Positions 36,959-64,000 of a stretch of DNA of 64,000 bases are shown piece by piece (position 1 is the first letter of the stretch; every line of letters starts with the position of its first letter). The notes under the pieces were generated by a model. The model was not told the origin of the DNA, did no database searches, and saw nothing but the letters and a program-made list of their open reading frames with translations. The stretch comes from Onthophagus taurus (Eukaryota > Arthropoda > Insecta > Coleoptera > Scarabaeidae), in contig NC_091976.1 of assembly GCF_036711975.1 (NCBI RefSeq), positions 34,924,217 to 34,988,216 on the forward strand, given 5' to 3'. The position numbers were made by a program, and so were the translations under genes.

Positions 36959-37030
36959 TTCCGATACCGGGAATCGAACCCGGGTCTCCTGGGTGAGAGC
37001 CAGGTATGATAACCACTACACTATATCGGA
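36959..37030 (-). tRNA. tRNA-Glu-CTC: tRNA-Glu (anticodon CTC)
   Basis: A 72-nt gene on the minus strand. The acceptor stem TCCGATA pairs with TATCGGA, with discriminator A. The A box lies in GTGTAGTGGTTATCA, the anticodon arm is CCTGG-CTCTCAC-CCAGG with anticodon CTC, and the T arm is CCGGG-TTCGATT-CCCGG, containing the B box. There is no intron, and CCA is not encoded, as in eukaryotes. A long T run follows two bases after the 3' end on the transcribed strand, a strong polymerase III terminator. All invariant stems pair, so it should be functional. Confidence 0.96.
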
Positions 37031-53681: not shown

Positions 53682-54768
53682 TTGGGTTGGGTTGGGTTGG
53701 GTTGGGTTGGGTTGGGTTGGGTTGGGTTGGGTTGGGTTGGGTTGGGTTGGGTTGGGTTGGGTTGGGTTGGGTTGGGTTGGGTTGGGTTGGGTTGGGTTGG
53801 GTTGGGTTGGGTTGGGTTGGGTTGGGTTGGGTTGGGTTGGGTTGGGTTGGGTTGGGTTGGGTTGGGTTGGGTTGGGTTGGGTTGGGTTGGGTTGGGTTGG
53901 GTTGGGTTGGGTTGGGTTGGGTTGGGTTGGGTTGGGTTGGGTTGGGTTGGGTTGGGTTGGGTTGGGTTGGGTTGGGTTGGGTTGGGTTGGGTTGGGTTGG
54001 GTTGGGTTGGGTTGGGTTGGGTTGGGTTGGGTTGGGTTGGGTTGGGTTGGGTTGGGTTGGGTTGGGTTGGGTTGGGTTGGGTTGGGTTGGGTTGGGTTGG
54101 GTTGGGTTGGGTTGGGTTGGGTTGGGTTGGGTTGGGTTGGGTTGGGTTGGGTTGGGTTGGGTTGGGTTGGGTTGGGTTGGGTTGGGTTGGGTTGGGTTGG
54201 GTTGGGTTGGGTTGGGTTGGGTTGGGTTGGGTTGGGTTGGGTTGGGTTGGGTTGGGTTGGGTTGGGTTGGGTTGGGTTGGGTTGGGTTGGGTTGGGTTGG
54301 GTTGGGTTGGGTTGGGTTGGGTTGGGTTGGGTTGGGTTGGGTTGGGTTGGGTTGGGTTGGGTTGGGTTGGGTTGGGTTGGGTTGGGTTGGGTTGGGTTGG
54401 GTTGGGTTGGGTTGGGTTGGGTTGGGTTGGGTTGGGTTGGGTTGGGTTGGGTTGGGTTGGGTTGGGTTGGGTTGGGTTGGGTTGGGTTGGGTTGGGTTGG
54501 GTTGGGTTGGGTTGGGTTGGGTTGGGTTGGGTTGGGTTGGGTTGGGTTGGGTTGGGTTGGGTTGGGTTGGGTTGGGTTGGGTTGGGTTGGGTTGGGTTGG
54601 GTTGGGTTGGGTTGGGTTGGGTTGGGTTGGGTTGGGTTGGGTTGGGTTGGGTTGGGTTGGGTTGGGTTGGGTTGGGTTGGGTTGGGTTGGGTTGGGTTGG
54701 GTTGGGTTGGGTTGGGTTGGGTTGGGTTGGGTTGGGTTGGGTTGGGTTGGGTTGGGTTGGGTTGGGTT
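53682..54768 (+). repeat. (TTGGG)n telomeric array, 217 perfect units
   Basis: 53682-54766 is 1085 bp, exactly 217 TTGGG units without a mismatch, plus TT up to the insertion point of the first retrotransposon. The G-rich strand is the + strand, placing the chromosome terminus to the right. TTGGG differs at one position from the ancestral insect TTAGG. Perfect homogeneity fits recent telomerase synthesis; the assembled length may not be exact. Confidence 0.95.
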
Positions 54769-55373
54769 AGTCGCAGTTAGACGTTCGCCGATGACGGATG
54801 GTGTTTTCCTGCGAGCTCCAATGAATGTGGTGTTTCTCACAAGTTTTACAACTTATAAGTGCAAATAATGGGGCAGAGACCACTATGTCACTAAATTATT
54901 CCTCCCCTGGGCCAAGGACCATTGTGGAAGGCTCTTAGTGGGTAACCTTTTCGCGATTTTGACGCTTGGTGAACCGCTAAAGACGAATTAACGTTCATAA
55001 ACGTAAGTAAAGTTTTGTTTATTTTATTCCGAGTAGACATGGCGCCATAAAACGCTAATGCGCGTGTGCGAGATCGGTCAGGTGAGATAAGATAAGATAT
55101 TTCGCGAGTTGAACGAACGCTCATTGCGGCGGCGGCCGCTCTAGCGGACGGGGCTCCCACGCCGTTTTTTGTTTTTTATTGGATTCGCGATCTTTTATTT
55201 TTGTTCTTGTGTCTTTTCTCCTTTTAAAACTAATTTATAGGCATCGGACCTTACTATAAAAAGAGAGAAAATTATAAATTATAAAAGGATAAACAATAAC
55301 GAGCGAAAACATCGCTGAAGAGCGCTCGATATAATAGAGGGTAAGCTAGGCCCCAAAAACAAAAAACTGCACT
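54769..55373 (+). promoter_or_regulatory. 5' UTR of retrotransposon copy 1 (intron-less form)
   Basis: It begins AGTCGCAGTTAG directly after the array. The first 130 nt (to 54898) correspond to exon 1 of the intron-containing copy, and the exon-exon junction is 54898/54899. Short upstream reading frames are present, for example 54791-54868 (25 codons from ATGACGG). A GC-rich GCGGCGGCGGCCGC segment and GATAAGATAAGATA lie in the second part. R1-clade elements usually carry an internal promoter at the 5' end; none can be pinpointed here. Confidence 0.7.
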
Positions 55374-57224
55374 ATGGAAGATAGAGCAGCGTTGGGGAAA
55401 GACCGAAAGCAGGAAGAGATGGATGAGGGGGACAAGGGTAGAAAAGAAGAAGGGGCGAGAGCACGTATTCGAAAGAGGGAGGAGGACGATGAAAGTGAAG
55501 AGGGAAGAGAGGGTAAGAGGAAACCCAGTGTGTCATTAGACAAAGAATTAGAAGCAATGAGAGGGATAGAAATGGAGAAAATGGAAAAGAAGGAAACTGA
55601 GAAAAAAGGAAAGACCACTAAAAATATCATAGATGATTTAACGAGAAAGATAGAGGAAATGGTAGGGTTAATACAACAGAACACTGCAGTTCCTTTAAAA
55701 AATAGAATTAGAGAATTTCATGGAGGGATAAAAGGGCTGCGGAGGATATATGAAAAAGAAGAAAGGGAAAGGGAGGAAAAAATGTATCTATTAAATACAC
55801 AGATAGATAAAATACAAAGTAATATAGAGATGAGAGTGGAATTGGGGAAAAAGATGACAGAGAAAGCTGAAAAAGGAACGCAAACTCAAATAAATAAAAA
55901 AGAAATAGCAACACAAACAAATATTGAAAGAATGTTTACACTACAAAGAACAGTGGAGAAGTATGAAGAGTTTAAAACAGTAAAAGAGGAAAAATGGACT
56001 AAGGAAAGTTATGAAAACACAGAAGTATTAATAGGAAATCCATTACACGCAAAGGATAGCACTGTATTGGTAGTTCTGGCTGACCCGGGAGATCCGAGGA
56101 TGGAGAGGGGCATACAGAGGAAATTTAAAGAAAGATACCCCGAGATAGAAGATATCGAAGAGAATATTGGTATCATTGAGCAGACTCACAAAATAAAAAC
56201 GAAAGGCCAAAGTGAAACAAGGCGAAGAAAAATAATAAAAATTACCTGTAAGGGAACTGATGAGGATCTCTTTGAAAGCTTTAGATTGCTAAGGGAGGAA
56301 GTAAAGGATGACGAACGCATATCATGTCATACAATAAAAGAAAGAGACACGAATACCATAAGAAAAATAATAGAATCAAATTTTCATGGTACAAAAACAA
56401 GGGTTGTGATATATGTACCAGAAATGGAAAAAATCAAGACTGTAGAGAAACAAGAAAGAAAAACATATGCCTTTGTCGTTGAAAATAAAGACAAGTCATA
56501 TACAGACACCCTAAAGGAAGTAAAAGAGAGGCTACAAAAGGGAAACATAGGAGAGGGAATAAAAAGTATTAGAAGTACCAGAAAAGGAAAACTATTAGTT
56601 GTAATGGATAAAGATAAAGACAAGATAGAAAAAATTAAGGAGGCCATAGTTGAAAATAAAGAGATGAAAGTGAAACAGCTGAGAGATGGAGATACAGACA
56701 CTATACATATAAGAGGTATGGACGCATTAGTGGAAAAATGTGAGGTACAGAAAGCCATAGAAGAGATGGTAGGAGAAGGGAGATACGATTTAAAAATGGG
56801 AGAACTCAGGCCAATGAGAGATGAGACAATGGCAATAACTATTAAAATGGAGAGAAAGGGTGCTGAAATGCTGTTAAGGCAGGGTAACATTAAGATCGGT
56901 TATGCGAGATGCAACTTGGAAAAGAGGGTAGAAATACAAAGGTGCTATAGATGCTGGGGACACGGTCACTCGAGCAAGGATTGCTCGGGACCGGACAGGG
57001 TTAAGCTCTGCTTTAGATGCGGGAAAGAGGGCCATGCAGCGAAGGACTGCAAAAATGAGGAGTATTGCCCAATATGTGAGCACAGTGGACATAGGGCGGG
57101 GTCAGGAAGATGCGAGAATTTTAAAAAGGAACTAAACACAAGAAGAAGGGCGGAAAGACAAGTTTGGAGGAAGGAATGGGCCAAAGAAACAAAGCAGGCC
57201 CAACAAACACAGATAACAAATTAA
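55374..57224 (+). CDS. retrotransposon ORF1 (gag-like nucleic-acid-binding protein), copy 1
   Basis: A 616-residue protein. The N-terminal part is extremely rich in Lys and Glu and probably coiled-coil (about residues 1-180). The middle has no family I can name. Three zinc knuckles lie near the C terminus: CYRCWGHGHSSKDC (524-537), CFRCGKEGHAAKDC (546-559) and C565-X2-C568-X4-H573-X6-C580. This array is the hallmark of R1-clade ORF1 proteins, which coat the element RNA and, in telomere-specific members, bring it to telomeres (family knowledge). The ATG has a good context (A at -3, G at +4). The stop codon is followed two bases later by the ORF2 ATG. It differs from copy 2 at one residue I could see (K404 here, E in copy 2). 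Confidence 0.93.
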   Translation: MEDRAALGKDRKQEEMDEGDKGRKEEGARARIRKREEDDESEEGREGKRKPSVSLDKELEAMRGIEMEKMEKKETEKKGKTTKNIIDDLTRKIEEMVGLIQQNTAVPLKNRIREFHGGIKGLRRIYEKEEREREEKMYLLNTQIDKIQSNIEMRVELGKKMTEKAEKGTQTQINKKEIATQTNIERMFTLQRTVEKYEEFKTVKEEKWTKESYENTEVLIGNPLHAKDSTVLVVLADPGDPRMERGIQRKFKERYPEIEDIEENIGIIEQTHKIKTKGQSETRRRKIIKITCKGTDEDLFESFRLLREEVKDDERISCHTIKERDTNTIRKIIESNFHGTKTRVVIYVPEMEKIKTVEKQERKTYAFVVENKDKSYTDTLKEVKERLQKGNIGEGIKSIRSTRKGKLLVVMDKDKDKIEKIKEAIVENKEMKVKQLRDGDTDTIHIRGMDALVEKCEVQKAIEEMVGEGRYDLKMGELRPMRDETMAITIKMERKGAEMLLRQGNIKIGYARCNLEKRVEIQRCYRCWGHGHSSKDCSGPDRVKLCFRCGKEGHAAKDCKNEEYCPICEHSGHRAGSGRCENFKKELNTRRRAERQVWRKEWAKETKQAQQTQITN

Positions 57225-57226
57225 AA

Positions 57227-60200
57227 ATGTCTCAAACAGTTAAAATAATGCAGGCCAATAAAAATCCAATAAAAATGCCGCAGAAAATAAAAATAATACA
57301 GATAAATGCAAACAGAAGCACAGAGGCCATGAATATGCTTGAGAGAAACATCGTTAAGAAAAGAATAGACCTGGCAATAGTATCAGAGCCGAATAAAAGG
57401 AAAACAGAAAACGGAAAGTGGCTCAAAAACAAGAACGCAAGCGTGGCAATTAAAATAATAAATAGCGACATAAAGGTGACAAACTGGAAAGAAGGAAGCT
57501 GCTATGTAGCAGTACAAATAGATATATGCAAAATAATAGGATGTTACCTACCGCCAAACACAACTATCGAAACTTTCCAAGAACAACTGGAAGAGATAGG
57601 AGGGGGTTTTGACGGAAGAAAGGAAGAAATCGTTGTCGTAGCTGGAGATTTCAACGCCAAATCGGCTGCATGGGGATCCAAAAGAGAGGACAAGAGGGGA
57701 ACCATCCTCAACGAATGGATGTCTGAGAAAGAACTTACGGTGGTGAACGCAGGAAATAAACCAACCTGGAGAAGAGGGGACCAGATATCAAATATAGATA
57801 TAACCATGTGCAACGAGAAAGCAATGAAAAACTTAACAGGATGGAAAATCGATGACGAGGAAAACTTGAGTGACCACCTAAACATATATTTTAATATTGA
57901 AAAGCTGAAAAAAGAGCAAACGCCGGAAGACGAGGGGAATATGCGATGGAGAAGAAGGGTGGACTTAGTGGAGAAATACAAAGAGACAATAGAAAGAAAA
58001 CTACAAGCAGTCAAATCTCTGACACCGGAGCTACTGACGACATTAACTGCGCAAGCTTGCGATGAAGTGTATGGCAAACCCAAAAGAAATACACCACGAC
58101 GGGGAAACATCTACTGGTACAACGACGACGTTAAAAAGGCTAAACAAGACGCCAATAGACATAGACGGGAATTGACGAGAATGAACGCAAGGGAGAGTAG
58201 TGGAGATGAAAAGCTGGAGATCAGCAAAAAATACAAGGACGCAAAAGCGGGGCTTAAGAGGGAAATAAAGAAGGCAAAGAGGGATGCATGGAGAAAGCTG
58301 TGCGGGGAATTAGAAGAAAACCCGTGGGGCGAAGCATATGTAATCGCGATAAAAAAGACAAAAAACATTCCAAAAACCACGCTACACAAAGATCAAGTGG
58401 AGAAATTAATAAAGGAATTATTTCCCGAAGGCGACAACATCGGATACGAACGGGGAATCCTAGGGGACAAAGAGCCCAAAGCCAAAAAGATAACGGAGGA
58501 AGAAATCAAAGAACTTGCGATGGGGATAAGAAATAAAAAAGCACCGGGACCAGATAAAATAACGGCTGAAATAATAAAAGATACCATCAGCACGAGAGGA
58601 ATTCAAAAAATAATAAAAATGTATAACGACTTATTACGGGCTAATGAATTCCCGGAAATATGGAAGACAGGGAGACTGGTGCTGATAGAAAAAAAACCGG
58701 GTACAGATAAATATCGGCCATTATGTCTTTTGAATTGCTACGGCAAGCTATACGAGGCCATAATTAAAAAGAGACTAGAGGAGGAAATAAATGCAAGGGC
58801 AAAAATATCAAGCTCCCAGTATGGCTTCACAAAGGGAAAGTCAACGGTAGACGCAATAGAAGATGTGTTGGGGAAAAGTAGGACGCTGCAGAAGTTCACG
58901 AGAGGGAAGCGAAAGAAATGTCTGCTAATTACTGTAGACGTTAAAAACGCATTCGGTACCGCACCATGGGGGAAGATAATGGACTCACTTCGGCGGAAAT
59001 ATATACCAAACAATCTTCTTAGTATAATGGCAAGTTATTTGAGCGAACGCTTCGTGGAACACCAGGGGAGAAAATATAGAATCAACAGAGGAGTCCCTCA
59101 AGGATCAATCCTGGGTCCTCTCCTCTGGAACGTGTATTTTGATCAGCTGCTTGAGGAAGAACAACGAGACAGCCTCGACGAGGGCAAGCTAGTGGCGTAT
59201 GCAGACGACCTGGCGATTGTTATAAGTGGCTGGAAAATAGATGAGATACAATTGAAGGCACAACAAATAATAGAGAGAGTGATGAAAAAAATGGAGGAGA
59301 TGGGCCTGGAAATTGCCCCGGAAAAGACAGAGGCGGTACTGCTCAAAAGTAGAAAAAGCAGAAAGGAAATAACGATTAACGTAAAGGGGCATAATATAAC
59401 AACAAAAAAATCACTAAAGTACCTTGGGGTCATGCTGGGAAAAGATCTCAACTGGAAAGAACACATCGAATATATACTAAACAAGACGCAGAAAACGGTA
59501 AATGCCCTCCACAGGGTGATGGGCCCGACTTACGGACCCAGGGAGGAAAAGAGGAAGCTTATCGCGTCGGTGGTGTACTCCCAGATACTATACGGATGCA
59601 GAGCATGGAGAGAAGCACTTAAAGTCAAAAACCTGAAAGATACACTCTCAAAAATCCAGAGAAGACTGGCAATTAAAACAACCAGCTCCTATCGAACCGT
59701 TTCTACAGAGGCACTCCTTGCAATAGGTAGCATACTTCCCGTCGACTTACTAGTTAAAAGAAGAAGCGTAAACCCAAATGGAAAGAACGAAGCGACAAAG
59801 GAAGTAATGGAAGAGTGGGAGACCAGATGGCGGGAAGATACAGGAAAAGCGCAGTGGACAAAGAAACTGATACCCACACTAACACCGTGGGCAACTAGAA
59901 AGTGGGGAGAATTGAGCTACGCTATGACTCAGTTTATGAGCGGACACGGGTGCTTTAGAAAATACTTGCACAAATTCAAAAGAGCAAACGACGAAATGTG
60001 TCTGTATTGCAAACACGTGGCCGACGACGCGGATCACACATTCTTTGAATGCGATAGATGGAGAGAAGAGAGAAGGAGCGTAAATAGAAAAATCGGGAAA
60101 ACACTGACGCCCGAAAACTGCGTTAACACCATGCTAGAGAGGGAAGAAAACTGGAATTGTATCGAGGCATATGTCAGGAAGGTGATAAAGACGAAAGAGG

Positions 60201-60316
60201 GAGAAGAAGAGAGTATGAGCGAGACCAGAGATACGGGGAACCCCATAGAACTGGTCGCTGACACAACTCCCGGGAATAAATTACACAGCCCTGGGAGAAG
60301 AAGAGGGGAGTCATGA
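57227..60316 (+). CDS. retrotransposon ORF2: APE endonuclease, reverse transcriptase, zinc knuckle, copy 1
   Basis: A 1029-residue protein from the ATG at 57227; an in-frame ATG at 57164 inside ORF1 would add 21 residues. The APE endonuclease covers residues 20-225: QINANR (N27), SEP (E54), GDFNA (140-144), NIDIT (D191) and SDH (215-217), all catalytic positions kept. The reverse transcriptase covers about 430-745: KAPGPDKI, YRPLCLLNC, TVDVKNAFG (D571), GVPQGSILGPLLWN and YADD (658-661), all intact. The C-terminal knuckle is C925-X2-C928-X8-H937-X4-C942. No RNase H is seen. By family knowledge, the endonuclease nicks telomeric repeats and the enzyme primes cDNA synthesis there. Start choice: TAA-AA-ATG coupling with ORF1 resembles the stop-start reinitiation reported for SART1 (UAAUG). 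The TGA stop lies in the loop of the first 3' UTR hairpin. Confidence 0.95.
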   Translation: MSQTVKIMQANKNPIKMPQKIKIIQINANRSTEAMNMLERNIVKKRIDLAIVSEPNKRKTENGKWLKNKNASVAIKIINSDIKVTNWKEGSCYVAVQIDICKIIGCYLPPNTTIETFQEQLEEIGGGFDGRKEEIVVVAGDFNAKSAAWGSKREDKRGTILNEWMSEKELTVVNAGNKPTWRRGDQISNIDITMCNEKAMKNLTGWKIDDEENLSDHLNIYFNIEKLKKEQTPEDEGNMRWRRRVDLVEKYKETIERKLQAVKSLTPELLTTLTAQACDEVYGKPKRNTPRRGNIYWYNDDVKKAKQDANRHRRELTRMNARESSGDEKLEISKKYKDAKAGLKREIKKAKRDAWRKLCGELEENPWGEAYVIAIKKTKNIPKTTLHKDQVEKLIKELFPEGDNIGYERGILGDKEPKAKKITEEEIKELAMGIRNKKAPGPDKITAEIIKDTISTRGIQKIIKMYNDLLRANEFPEIWKTGRLVLIEKKPGTDKYRPLCLLNCYGKLYEAIIKKRLEEEINARAKISSSQYGFTKGKSTVDAIEDVLGKSRTLQKFTRGKRKKCLLITVDVKNAFGTAPWGKIMDSLRRKYIPNNLLSIMASYLSERFVEHQGRKYRINRGVPQGSILGPLLWNVYFDQLLEEEQRDSLDEGKLVAYADDLAIVISGWKIDEIQLKAQQIIERVMKKMEEMGLEIAPEKTEAVLLKSRKSRKEITINVKGHNITTKKSLKYLGVMLGKDLNWKEHIEYILNKTQKTVNALHRVMGPTYGPREEKRKLIASVVYSQILYGCRAWREALKVKNLKDTLSKIQRRLAIKTTSSYRTVSTEALLAIGSILPVDLLVKRRSVNPNGKNEATKEVMEEWETRWREDTGKAQWTKKLIPTLTPWATRKWGELSYAMTQFMSGHGCFRKYLHKFKRANDEMCLYCKHVADDADHTFFECDRWREERRSVNRKIGKTLTPENCVNTMLEREENWNCIEAYVRKVIKTKEGEEESMSETRDTGNPIELVADTTPGNKLHSPGRRRGES

Positions 60317-60325
60317 TGGCTCCCC
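60305..60325 (+). promoter_or_regulatory. 3' hairpin 1 of the retrotransposon RNA, over the ORF2 stop codon
   Basis: GGGGAGTCA-TGA-TGGCTCCCC: a 9-bp stem with one G-U pair in RNA. The 3-nt loop is the ORF2 stop codon TGA (60314-60316). It is the first of three related hairpins. Confidence 0.7.
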
Positions 60326-60413
60326 CGGCCCGATGTGTCGACAACTTGAGAGCGCAAAGGGAAGGGAGGAAAATGACAAGATGCTGAAAGCAAAACATCT
60401 CGAAAGAAGAGGA

Positions 60414-60436
60414 GGGGGAGTCACGATGGCTCCCCC
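60414..60436 (+). promoter_or_regulatory. 3' UTR hairpin 2 of the retrotransposon
   Basis: GGGGGAGTCA-CGA-TGGCTCCCCC: a 10-bp stem with one G-U pair. It is followed by CCACCTGGTACG and a CAAAAAGTAA segment, both shared with the third unit. Confidence 0.7.
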
Positions 60437-60581
60437 CACCTGGTACGCATGGTAAGAAATAATCTTCTCAAAAAGTAACGGTTTTCTTTTTTTCTCCCTT
60501 CTTATATGTCGACATCGTGGACGTGTGGAGGGGGGAAGACAAAGCCAAACGCCGAAGATGCAACCCACTGCAAGAAGAGGA

Positions 60582-60604
60582 GGGGGAGCCACGATGGCTC
60601 CCCC
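60582..60604 (+). promoter_or_regulatory. 3' UTR hairpin 3 of the retrotransposon
   Basis: GGGGGAGCCA-CGA-TGGCTCCCCC: a perfect 10-bp stem. The units (hairpin plus about 100-145 nt) are imperfect tandem repeats. By analogy with R1-clade elements, 3' UTR structures could be recognised by the element's reverse transcriptase; this is inference. Confidence 0.7.
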
Positions 60605-60800
60605 CACCTGGTACGTATAGAAAGTAAGACCTGTTCAAAAAGTAATGGGATTTTTTGTTTTGCTGTTATCGTAACACCGGCAACGCGTGGAGGAAGAGAT
60701 GATGGGGAGGAGATAACGAGAACGATAAGTGAGGTAGCATAAAGTACTCAACTCCGAAGAAACGCCTCCCGGCGGATTCCGGAGATGAAAAAAGAGGGGG

Positions 60801-60924
60801 GGTTTTTAGTGGGTAGTTCGGGGCTAGAATAGTCCCACACTCCCGGCCGAAGAGAAGTTTTCCAATTAACATCTGAGGCGCCAACAGTAGGCCGGGGTGC
60901 GCAACGCATTTTCCCCTCCTCTGC

Positions 60925-60976
<52 letters not shown>
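60801..60976 (+). promoter_or_regulatory. 3' end of the retrotransposon with 50-nt poly(A)
   Basis: TTTTTAGTGGGTAGTTCGGG (60803-60822) opens a structured box: GTGGG (60809-60813) pairs with CCCAC (60834-60838) around an inner TAG/CTA stem. A box of this form near the 3' end is, from memory, recurrent in R1-clade elements. The 3' UTR ends CTCTGCGC, followed by 50 A (60927-60976) joined directly to GGGTTGGG. Confidence 0.7.
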
Positions 60977-60979
<3 letters not shown>

Positions 60980-61171
60980 TTGGGTTGGGTTGGGTTGGGT
61001 TGGGTTGGGTTGGGTTGGGTTGGGTTGGGTTGGGTTGGGTTGGGTTGGGTTGGGTTGGGTTGGGTTGGGTTGGGTTGGGTTGGGTTGGGTTGGGTTGGGT
61101 TGGGTTGGGTTGGGTTGGGTTGGGTTGGGTTGGGTTGGGTTGGGTTGGGTTGGGTTGGGTTGGGTTGGGTT
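60977..61171 (+). repeat. (TTGGG)n telomeric array between the two elements
   Basis: GGG plus 38 perfect TTGGG units (60977-61169), then TT to the start of the second element. It is in phase with the array left of copy 1 across the TT^GGG insertion point. Confidence 0.95.
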
Positions 61172-61301
61172 AGTCGCAGTTAGACGTTCGCCGATGACGG
61201 ATGGTGTTTTCCTGCGAGCTCCAATGAATGTGGTGTTTCTCACAAGTTTTACAACTTATAAGTGCAAATAATGGGGCAGAGACCACTATGTCACTAAATT
61301 A

Positions 61302-61412
61302 GTAAGTGAAGAGACCGGAAGGCAAAGAGAAGAGACGCTTAATTAGCGAGAAGTTAGCGAAAGTCTAATTAAAGTGTGGGTTCGTGATTGGGCTTGTTTT
61401 TTGTGCTTTAAG
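61302..61412 (+). other. 111-bp GT-AG intron in the 5' UTR of copy 2
   Basis: The segment is present in copy 2 and exactly absent from copy 1. It starts GTAAGT (consensus donor) and ends GTGCTTTAAG. CTAAT at 61365-61369 is a good branch-site match, 44 nt before the end, and a T-rich tract (TTGTTTTTTGTG) precedes the acceptor. No microhomology exists at the ends, so the boundary is unique and coincides with GT...AG. The length is normal for a small insect intron. Confidence 0.85.
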
Positions 61413-61887
61413 TTCCTCCCCTGGGCCAAGGACCATTGTGGAAGGCTCTTAGTGGGTAACCTTTTCGCGATTTTGACGCTTGGTGAACCGCTAAAGACGA
61501 ATTAACGTTCATAAACGTAAGTAAAGTTTTGTTTATTTTATTCCGAGTAGACATGGCGCCATAAAACGCTAATGCGCGTGTGCGAGATCGGTCAGGTGAG
61601 ATAAGATAAGATATTCCGCGAGTTGAACGAACGCTCATTGCGGCGGCGGCCGCTCTAGCGGACGGGGCTCCCACGCCGTTTTTTGTTTTTTATTGGATTC
61701 GCGATCTTTTATTTTTGTTCTTGTGTCTTTTCTCCTTTTAAAACTAATTTATAGGCATCGGACCTTACTATAAAAAGAGAGAAAATTATAAATTATAAAA
61801 GGATAAACAATAACGAGCGAAAACATCGCTGAAGAGCGCTCGATATAATAGAGGGTAAGCTAGGCCCCAAAAACAAAAAACTGCACT

Positions 61888-63738
61888 ATGGAAGATAGAG
61901 CAGCGTTGGGGAAAGACCGAAAGCAGGAAGAGATGGATGAGGGGGACAAGGGTAGAAAAGAAGAAGGGGCGAGAGCACGTATTCGAAAGAGGGAGGAGGA
62001 CGATGAAAGTGAAGAGGGAAGAGAGGGTAAGAGGAAACCCAGTGTGTCATTAGACAAAGAATTAGAAGCAATGAGAGGGATAGAAATGGAGAAAATGGAA
62101 AAGAAGGAAACTGAGAAAAAAGGAAAGACCACTAAAAATATCATAGATGATTTAACGAGAAAGATAGAGGAAATGGTAGGGTTAATACAACAGAACACTG
62201 CAGTTCCTTTAAAAAATAGAATTAGAGAATTTCATGGAGGGATAAAAGGGCTGCGGAGGATATATGAAAAAGAAGAAAGGGAAAGGGAGGAAAAAATGTA
62301 TCTATTAAATACACAGATAGATAAAATACAAAGTAATATAGAGATGAGAGTGGAATTGGGGAAAAAGATGACAGAGAAAGCTGAAAAAGGAACGCAAACT
62401 CAAATAAATAAAAAAGAAATAGCAACACAAACAAATATTGAAAGAATGTTTACACTACAAAGAACAGTGGAGAAGTATGAAGAGTTTAAAACAGTAAAAG
62501 AGGAAAAATGGACTAAGGAAAGTTATGAAAACACAGAAGTATTAATAGGAAATCCATTACACGCAAAGGATAGCACTGTATTGGTAGTTCTGGCTGACCC
62601 GGGAGATCCGAGGATGGAGAGGGGCATACAGAGGAAATTTAAAGAAAGATACCCCGAGATAGAAGATATCGAAGAGAATATTGGTATCATTGAGCAGACT
62701 CACAAAATAAAAACGAAAGGCCAAAGTGAAACAAGGCGAAGAAAAATAATAAAAATTACCTGTAAGGGAACTGATGAGGATCTCTTTGAAAGCTTTAGAT
62801 TGCTAAGGGAGGAAGTAAAGGATGACGAACGCATATCATGTCATACAATAAAAGAAAGAGACACGAATACCATAAGAAAAATAATAGAATCAAATTTTCA
62901 TGGTACAAAAACAAGGGTTGTGATATATGTACCAGAAATGGAAAAAATCAAGACTGTAGAGAAACAAGAAAGAAAAACATATGCCTTTGTCGTTGAAAAT
63001 AAAGACAAGTCATATACAGACACCCTAAAGGAAGTAAAAGAGAGGCTACAAAAGGGAAACATAGGAGAGGGAATAAAAAGTATTAGAAGTACCAGAGAAG
63101 GAAAACTATTAGTTGTAATGGATAAAGATAAAGACAAGATAGAAAAAATTAAGGAGGCCATAGTTGAAAATAAAGAGATGAAAGTGAAACAGCTGAGAGA
63201 TGGAGATACAGACACTATACATATAAGAGGTATGGACGCATTAGTGGAAAAATGTGAGGTACAGAAAGCCATAGAAGAGATGGTAGGAGAAGGGAGATAC
63301 GATTTAAAAATGGGAGAACTCAGGCCAATGAGAGATGAGACAATGGCAATAACTATTAAAATGGAGAGAAAGGGTGCTGAAATGCTGTTAAGGCAGGGTA
63401 ACATTAAGATCGGTTATGCGAGATGCAACTTGGAAAAGAGGGTAGAAATACAAAGGTGCTATAGATGCTGGGGACACGGTCACTCGAGCAAGGATTGCTC
63501 GGGACCGGACAGGGTTAAGCTCTGCTTTAGATGCGGGAAAGAGGGCCATGCAGCGAAGGACTGCAAAAATGAGGAGTATTGCCCAATATGTGAGCACAGT
63601 GGACATAGGGCGGGGTCAGGAAGATGCGAGAATTTTAAAAAGGAACTAAACACAAGAAGAAGGGCGGAAAGACAAGTTTGGAGGAAGGAATGGGCCAAAG
63701 AAACAAAGCAGGCCCAACAAACACAGATAACAAATTAA
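61888..63738 (+). CDS. retrotransposon ORF1 (gag-like), copy 2
   Basis: A 616-residue protein identical to ORF1 of copy 1 except for one residue seen (E404 instead of K). The same three CCHC zinc knuckles lie at 524-537, 546-559 and 565-580, the frame is intact and the TAA-AA-ATG junction to ORF2 is the same. In this copy the 5' UTR upstream of it contains the 111-bp intron. Confidence 0.93.
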   Translation: MEDRAALGKDRKQEEMDEGDKGRKEEGARARIRKREEDDESEEGREGKRKPSVSLDKELEAMRGIEMEKMEKKETEKKGKTTKNIIDDLTRKIEEMVGLIQQNTAVPLKNRIREFHGGIKGLRRIYEKEEREREEKMYLLNTQIDKIQSNIEMRVELGKKMTEKAEKGTQTQINKKEIATQTNIERMFTLQRTVEKYEEFKTVKEEKWTKESYENTEVLIGNPLHAKDSTVLVVLADPGDPRMERGIQRKFKERYPEIEDIEENIGIIEQTHKIKTKGQSETRRRKIIKITCKGTDEDLFESFRLLREEVKDDERISCHTIKERDTNTIRKIIESNFHGTKTRVVIYVPEMEKIKTVEKQERKTYAFVVENKDKSYTDTLKEVKERLQKGNIGEGIKSIRSTREGKLLVVMDKDKDKIEKIKEAIVENKEMKVKQLRDGDTDTIHIRGMDALVEKCEVQKAIEEMVGEGRYDLKMGELRPMRDETMAITIKMERKGAEMLLRQGNIKIGYARCNLEKRVEIQRCYRCWGHGHSSKDCSGPDRVKLCFRCGKEGHAAKDCKNEEYCPICEHSGHRAGSGRCENFKKELNTRRRAERQVWRKEWAKETKQAQQTQITN

Positions 63739-63740
63739 AA

Positions 63741-64000
63741 ATGTCTCAAACAGTTAAAATAATGCAGGCCAATAAAAATCCAATAAAAATGCCGCAGAAA
63801 ATAAAAATAATACAGATAAATGCAAACAGAAGCACAGAGGCCATGAATATGCTTGAGAGAAACATCGTTAAGAAAAGAATAGACCTGGCAATAGTATCAG
63901 AGCCGAATAAAAGGAAAACAGAAAACGGAAAGTGGCTCAAAAACAAGAACGCAAGCGTGGCAATTAAAATAATAAATAGCGACATAAAGGTGACAAACTG
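63741..64000 (+). CDS. retrotransposon ORF2, copy 2 (partial, N-terminal endonuclease part)
   Basis: It starts MSQTVKIMQANKNP two bases after the ORF1 stop. Only the first 86 codons are in the window, covering the QINANR (N27) and SEP (E54) motifs of the APE endonuclease; the sequence matches copy 1 over this part. The rest lies beyond the window. Confidence 0.9.
   Translation, partial: MSQTVKIMQANKNPIKMPQKIKIIQINANRSTEAMNMLERNIVKKRIDLAIVSEPNKRKTENGKWLKNKNASVAIKIINSDIKVTN

Follow-up and report, generated by a model that had tools for sequence, protein, structure and literature searches.

A putative 5′ UTR intron and a candidate spliced retrocopy in a SART-like telomeric LINE of the beetle Onthophagus taurus

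Introduction

Retrotransposed copies of RNAs that were spliced within the 5′ UTR are already known for human L1, in which three classes of these spliced integrated retrotransposed elements (SpIREs) account for 131 of the 6,609 annotated full-length L1PA1–L1PA6 copies (PMC5860796). As described in the same source, the L1 splice donor at position 98 is approximately 46 million years old, although splicing harms L1, and the RNAs spliced within the 5′ UTR are able to complete one round of retrotransposition.

Here, we describe two nearly identical copies of a telomeric LINE in the scarab beetle Onthophagus taurus, one of which lacks an exact 111-nt segment of the 5′ UTR with GT...AG ends. In this respect, the pair resembles L1 SpIRE97/622, likewise full-length LINE copies from whose 5′ UTR a GT...AG segment is exactly missing, a loss put down to the retrotransposition of spliced RNA, and the unspliced form is the main mobile form in L1, as we propose for the beetle element (PMC5860796). 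The same 5′ start, a poly(A) tail, and the target site, which are hallmarks of retrotransposition, are all found in the beetle element. Unlike the L1 SpIREs, however, it is not an L1 but appears to be an R1-type, telomere-specific insect element. The length spliced out would be 111 nt, as against 524 nt in L1, where position 97 is joined to position 622, and whereas spliced L1 copies have been shown to lose promoter sequences and function, the beetle copy without the segment keeps its first 132 nt (PMC5860796).

Two telomeric LINEs and one further group of retroelements also offer comparisons. As in SART1 of Bombyx mori, the sense strand of the beetle element is the G-rich telomere strand, there are two ORFs, the poly(A) abuts the G-rich part of the repeat, and insertion follows TT, between TT and AGG in SART1 and between TT and GGG in the beetle (PMC7265360). 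In contrast, the beetle repeat is (TTGGG)n, and the main text of the SART1 paper contains neither "intron" nor "splic-" (PMC7265360). Drosophila HeT-A is similarly a telomeric LINE with transcript splicing, which was observed there (PMC3235214) and is deduced here from genomic copies, but only antisense and no sense transcripts are reported as spliced in HeT-A, whereas the beetle GT–AG segment is on the sense strand. Penelope-like elements, like the element proposed here, are retroelements that keep introns through transposition; they have a GIY-YIG endonuclease and a proposed antisense template (PMC3846280), whereas the beetle element has an apurinic-type endonuclease and poly(A). No spliced retrocopy of an insect or telomere-specific LINE was found among the matches listed in our literature searches, which consisted of titles and abstract openings and covered few subscription papers. 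The papers containing the phrase "spliced integrated retrotransposed" dealt with L1, human or mammalian genomes, mobile elements generally, and one group II intron protein. Within the literature searched, a case of SpIRE-like splicing in an element other than L1, here a telomere-specific insect LINE, would be new.

Results

A tandem pair of element copies at the end of a contig

The window, that is, the whole 64,000-nt stretch of DNA analyzed, is the last 64 kb of a 34,988,216-bp contig (NC_091976.1, hereafter C11) in a 290.8-Mb assembly of 33 contigs. Its terminal part contains the following features.

54769..60976, + strand: copy 1, the full-length element; lacks the 111 nt, ends in poly(A), and lies within (TTGGG)n between TT and GGG
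54767..54898, + strand: exon-1 part of the copy 1 5′ UTR, 132 nt including two telomeric T; junction at 54898/54899
55374..57224, + strand: ORF1 of copy 1, 616 aa, with a CCHC zinc knuckle
57227..60316, + strand: ORF2 of copy 1 from its first ATG, with an apurinic-type endonuclease and reverse transcriptase
60317..60926, + strand: 3′ UTR of copy 1, with ~166-nt repeated units and a ~150-nt 3′-terminal module common to other families
60927..60976, + strand: 50-nt poly(A) tail of copy 1, abutting telomeric GGG
60977..61171, + strand: (GGGTT)39 separating the copies
61172..64000, + strand: copy 2, which includes the 111 nt and is cut off where C11 ends
61888..63738, + strand: ORF1 of copy 2, 616 aa, with E instead of K at residue 404

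The two copies stand in tandem, and copy 2 is incomplete because the window ends exactly where C11 ends, with no further part of copy 2 on the contig. When copy 1 from 54767 was globally aligned with 61170–64000 of copy 2, 2,720 nt were aligned in blocks of 132 and 2,588 nt, with one gap, of 111 nt, and two substitutions (copy 1/copy 2: T/C at 55102/61616 and A/G at 56583/63097). The gap lies in copy 1 at the junction 54898/54899, and the insert consists of nucleotides 61302–61412 of copy 2. Both copies begin at the same base after (TTGGG)nTT, the element proper starting at 54769 and 61172, with the flanking TT assignable to the telomere, and copy 1 ends with poly(A) followed directly by GGG. 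The first-pass annotation had placed a sister copy 6.5 kb away; the sister copy is indeed there, at a start-to-start distance of 6,403 nt.

C11 ends inside copy 2 and the joint between the copies is a simple repeat, as might be expected if they were two alleles of one insertion that had been joined in the assembly via the telomeric repeat. However, each copy has its own 5′ flank, a long (TTGGG)n array in the case of copy 1 and poly(A)50 with (GGGTT)39 in that of copy 2, and the exact GT–AG difference would persist even between alleles; we regard such an artefact as extremely unlikely. An array of 17-nt variant telomeric units (TTGGGTTGGGTTCGCGG type) extends from 51900 to ~53680, upstream of the pure (TTGGG)n leading up to copy 1, and the opposite end of C11 has a variant array with a 22-nt unit containing GCGGG (locus L037, 1790–2120).

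Domain searches identified Exo_endo_phos_2 and RVT_1 in ORF2 and matched one CCHC stretch in ORF1, where others may fall under the cut-off. The closest solved chain to ORF2 is TRAS1 ORF2p, with a match over residues 102–225. Among the 81 relatives of ORF2 (E up to 1e-20; 7,997 candidates scored), 14 are named, and the name type-1 retrotransposable element R1DM is borne by two (P0054 and P0065). The nearest named relatives of ORF1 are from O. taurus itself (P0002 and P0003, both at 59% identity, with query coverage of 64% and 35%, respectively). In its sense orientation, the element is aligned with the G-rich telomere strand: its 5′ end follows ...GGGTT, and its poly(A) is joined to GGGTT. Because this orientation and insertion arrangement match those of SART1 in (TTAGG)n, we term the element SART-like by target and orientation. 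It is probably an R1-type telomere-specific LINE, and its initial description as a telomere-specific non-LTR element is supported. The repeat (TTGGG)n has been reported as telomeric, or as a candidate telomeric repeat, in Onthophagus, Pachysoma, Canthidium, and Anoplotrupes (PMC8233369). A Penelope-like element was also considered and set aside, since Exo_endo_phos_2 was found instead of a GIY-YIG endonuclease. No Rfam family, 5′ ribozymes included, reached the gathering score in 54760–55400 or in L037, and the gathering search of the whole window returned one tRNA only (36959–37030).

The 3′ UTR contains ~166-nt repeated units at 60404–60660, with TACGTATAGAAAGTAAG...AAAAAGTAATGG, and by eye a similar unit is present in the 5′ UTR of family B. 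Its last ~150 nt (60780–60926) recur in at least 38 further places (L009–L036) at 78–87% identity, both telomeric and dispersed (40 of 108 candidates scored), and an A run follows in three of the four matches with printed sequence, L013 being the other. Judging by these matches, the 3′-terminal ~150 nt is a 3′ module common to several LINE families.

All copy counts in the assembly are lower bounds. The 5′ UTR query (607 nt) matched these two copies alone in the 290.8 Mb, and the 111-nt insert query gave a single match, so the count of forms called for by the first-pass annotation came to at least one intron-plus and at least one intron-minus copy. The DNA of ORF1 and ORF2 together returned 39 pieces, comprising the same two copies and 37 pieces at 66–87% identity (with the exception of one 30-nt piece at 97%), and this search of the assembly found no further close copy, again as a lower bound. 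A third near-identical copy was detected with the 3′ UTR query at C11:1145–1739 on the minus strand, with sequence to ~1788; it is 5′-truncated and has no vote on the intron because its 5′ UTR is absent. The three close copies found all lie at the two ends of C11 (C11:1145–1788, i.e., L037, and 54769–64000 of the window). The truncated copy starts within the 3′ UTR repeat, with AGT right after GGGTT (L037 1788–1790), like the full-length elements.

The 111-nt segment and its boundaries

The difference between the copies has the features of an intron in the 5′ UTR, as follows.

61302..61412, + strand: putative 111-nt intron, GTAAGT...TTTAAG, from the alignment, copy search, and chance control
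61365..61369, + strand: CTAAT branch-like site, whose A is 44 nt before the segment's 3′ end

The upstream flank GTCACTAAATTA is followed by an insert that runs GTAAGTGAAGAG...TTGTGCTTTAAG and then by the downstream flank TTCCTCCCCTGG, and the boundaries cannot be slid, by even one base, at either end. No target-site duplication, microhomology, or terminal inverted repeat was found at the insert ends (6 of 15 positions alike). The single 111-nt gap in the alignment and the position of the branch-like A confirm what had been noticed at first sight, namely a precise GT–AG segment with unslidable ends and a CTAAT 44 nt upstream of its end. Past this A, there is a single AG at 61373, 5 nt on, and the next AG is the terminal one. 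A GT donor, an AG acceptor, a branch-like site, and a T-rich tract are thus all present, with a weak exon end and a weak AAG acceptor: the exon side of the donor is TTA, and the acceptor AAG is followed by T. The donor ranked 112th among the 3,165 GTs of the + strand of the window outside the telomeric arrays, when scored with a donor matrix.

In the chance control, no 111-nt segment started with GTAAGT or GTGAGT and ended with AG, either in copy 1 (0/6,046) or in the host part of the window, 1–51800 (0/51,687), giving 0/57,733 in total, whereas plain GT...AG with unslidable ends occurred in 96 of these segments (12 in copy 1 and 84 in the host part). The rarity of the segment is therefore attributable to the full GTAAGT, plain unslidable GT...AG being not so rare. 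When 15 lengths from 60 to 200 nt were considered in the host part, 15 of 775,020 segments started with GTAAGT or GTGAGT and ended with AG. These counts bear on the possibility that copy 1, or its source, simply lost the 111 nt by a deletion that had nothing to do with splicing and has GT–AG ends by coincidence. Only a single event is seen, and the 96 plain unslidable segments are in keeping with such a coincidence, but the ends show no microhomology, and the exact GTAAGT...AG boundaries were matched by none of the 57,733 segments; we consider this explanation very unlikely.

Two other interpretations of the segment were rejected. An antisense intron does not fit, the complementary strand reading CT...AC. 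Nor is the insert an introner or other dispersed insertion sequence, because the assembly searches give the insert once and the 5′ UTR twice, and it has neither a duplication nor an inverted repeat.

Direction of change and related elements

The ORF1 products differ solely at residue 404, where copy 1 encodes K and copy 2 encodes E. This residue is covered by nine relatives (P0002–P0009 and family B of L037), among which it is D in six and E, Q, and S in one each, i.e., acidic in seven of nine and K in none; P0001, which is the element itself, was left out, and element E, which ends short of the residue, was set aside. This one site, the only one that could be polarized, gives a faint hint that copy 1 is the derived copy, which agrees with intron loss in copy 1.

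Element E (L059), found in one place (C11:6290794), has a GC-rich block downstream in its 5′ UTR in common with the two copies (39/49 identical), and its whole 5′ UTR aligned with that of either copy better than 40/40 shuffles. A conserved intron in element E is not supported: its 5′ UTR contained no homologue of the insert, 97 of 300 insert shuffles scoring as high as the insert alone. In another telomeric family, two near-identical 5′ ends (L069 on C16 and L071 on C6) aligned over 1,683 nt at 99.6% with no gap, and a third (L070) has 253 nt in common with L071, also with no gap. A difference of this type was thus not seen in the only other family open to comparison, which weighs against the spliced-RNA reading of copy 1.

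A second telomeric family group (L037 8654 to ~8500, minus strand; L066–L073) shares a GC-rich 5′ module that is conserved over ~150 nt and in most copies runs from CCTCAGGGGCC to ACAGGTGAAG. By eye, the changes within it look like paired stems, and in L066, L067, and L073 the module is partly repeated in tandem.

The comparison with relatives also bears on intron gain, in which the intron-less form would be ancestral and the lineage of copy 2 would have gained 111 nt that were or became an intron, for example by template-switch insertion during reverse transcription. That element E shows no old intron and that the intron-plus copy was found just once are both compatible with gain. However, a random insert must bring GTAAGT and AG exactly at its ends, which the chance control never produced; there is no source copy found in the assembly and no target-site duplication, and at residue 404 it is copy 1 rather than copy 2 that is marked as derived. 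Intron gain appears unlikely on these grounds.

A second candidate intron and proposed regulatory roles

A further segment with intron-like ends was noted by eye in the 5′ UTR of both copies.

55003..55240 (61517–61754 in copy 2), + strand: unproven second segment of intron-like appearance, GTAAGT...CTAATTTATAG, seen by eye in both copies

It ends in TATAG at 55240 (61754) after a long T-rich tract (by eye), and within it lies a block that is also conserved in element E. There is just one CTAAT nearby, with its A only 7 nt before the segment ends. Its donor at 55003 ranked 24th among the 3,165 GTs, above the score of the first donor, and the fact that this better-scoring donor has been kept unspliced in both copies argues against the spliced-RNA reading of copy 1.

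On the other hand, the retention of this second segment in both copies, together with the persistence of the first intron in a very young copy, would suit regulated splicing in the life cycle of the element, with the unspliced RNA as the template and the spliced RNA in an export or translation role, as in retroviruses. Several findings speak against it. Eight upstream ATGs are present in the spliced and unspliced forms alike, none of them inside the intron, and just two upstream frames become longer on splicing, one growing from 24 to 37 codons and the other from 4 to 17. With the ATG set unchanged by splicing, the control of upstream ORFs by the intron that was suggested in the first-pass annotation was rejected as unsupported. 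In the predicted RNA folding, the mean unpaired probability was 0.54 for the donor, higher than for the UTR (0.39) and the second donor (0.33); the donor is thus predicted to be rather open, and folding gives no support to masking of the donor. The apparent paradox of an intron retained by a retrotransposon was likewise overstated at the outset, since human L1 keeps splice sites within its 5′ UTR (PMC5860796), and because L1 shows both spliced retrocopies and lasting splice sites, a retained intron needs no regulatory role. It seems improbable, on balance, that one or two 5′ UTR introns are kept on purpose, with the intron-bearing RNA as template and the spliced RNA for another step. If this were true, splicing would switch the element at telomeres between being used and being spread.

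Discussion

The explanation that we favor, and consider likely given the two genomic copies, is that copy 1 is a retrotransposed spliced RNA and that copy 2 derives from unspliced RNA, the 5′ UTR containing a spliceosomal intron that is used part-time. Copy 1 would then be a SpIRE-type element outside L1. A single event, retrotransposition of a spliced sense RNA, would account for the precise boundary, the 5′ end common to both copies, and the poly(A) of copy 1, and for the removal of the intron from RNA it is the cDNA-like copy 1 alone that speaks. The origin of copy 1 from spliced RNA had already been proposed from the first comparison of the copies, and the exact GT–AG gap and the polarity of residue 404, at one site, lend it support. 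The near identity of copy 2 to copy 1 points to an unspliced RNA origin for copy 2, unless the intron was gained. The accompanying proposal that unspliced RNA retrotransposes too would follow if the intron is ancestral, an ancestry that we infer, together with splicing itself, the direction of change, and the partial or conditional use of the intron, from the sequences compared here.

In the proposed mechanism, the RNA of the element would start at its first base. Some transcripts would retain the intron (61302–61412) and would have given rise to copy 2 by target-primed reverse transcription between TT and GGG, and copy 1 would have arisen likewise, by reverse transcription of a transcript that came from a near-identical source and had been spliced. 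The simplest guess for the survival of the intron is that splicing is weak, owing to the AAG acceptor and the non-consensus exon end, and that unspliced RNA is dominant.

The two copies provide a clean natural intron-plus/intron-minus pair, two substitutions apart, in a non-mammalian LINE. Such a pair allows us to ask how a LINE keeps an intron across cycles, and whether the spliced RNA of a telomeric LINE is mobile for one round, as in L1, or for many, given that the first 132 nt are intact. Should other telomeres carry spliced copies with this same boundary, the rate of splicing per transposition would become countable.
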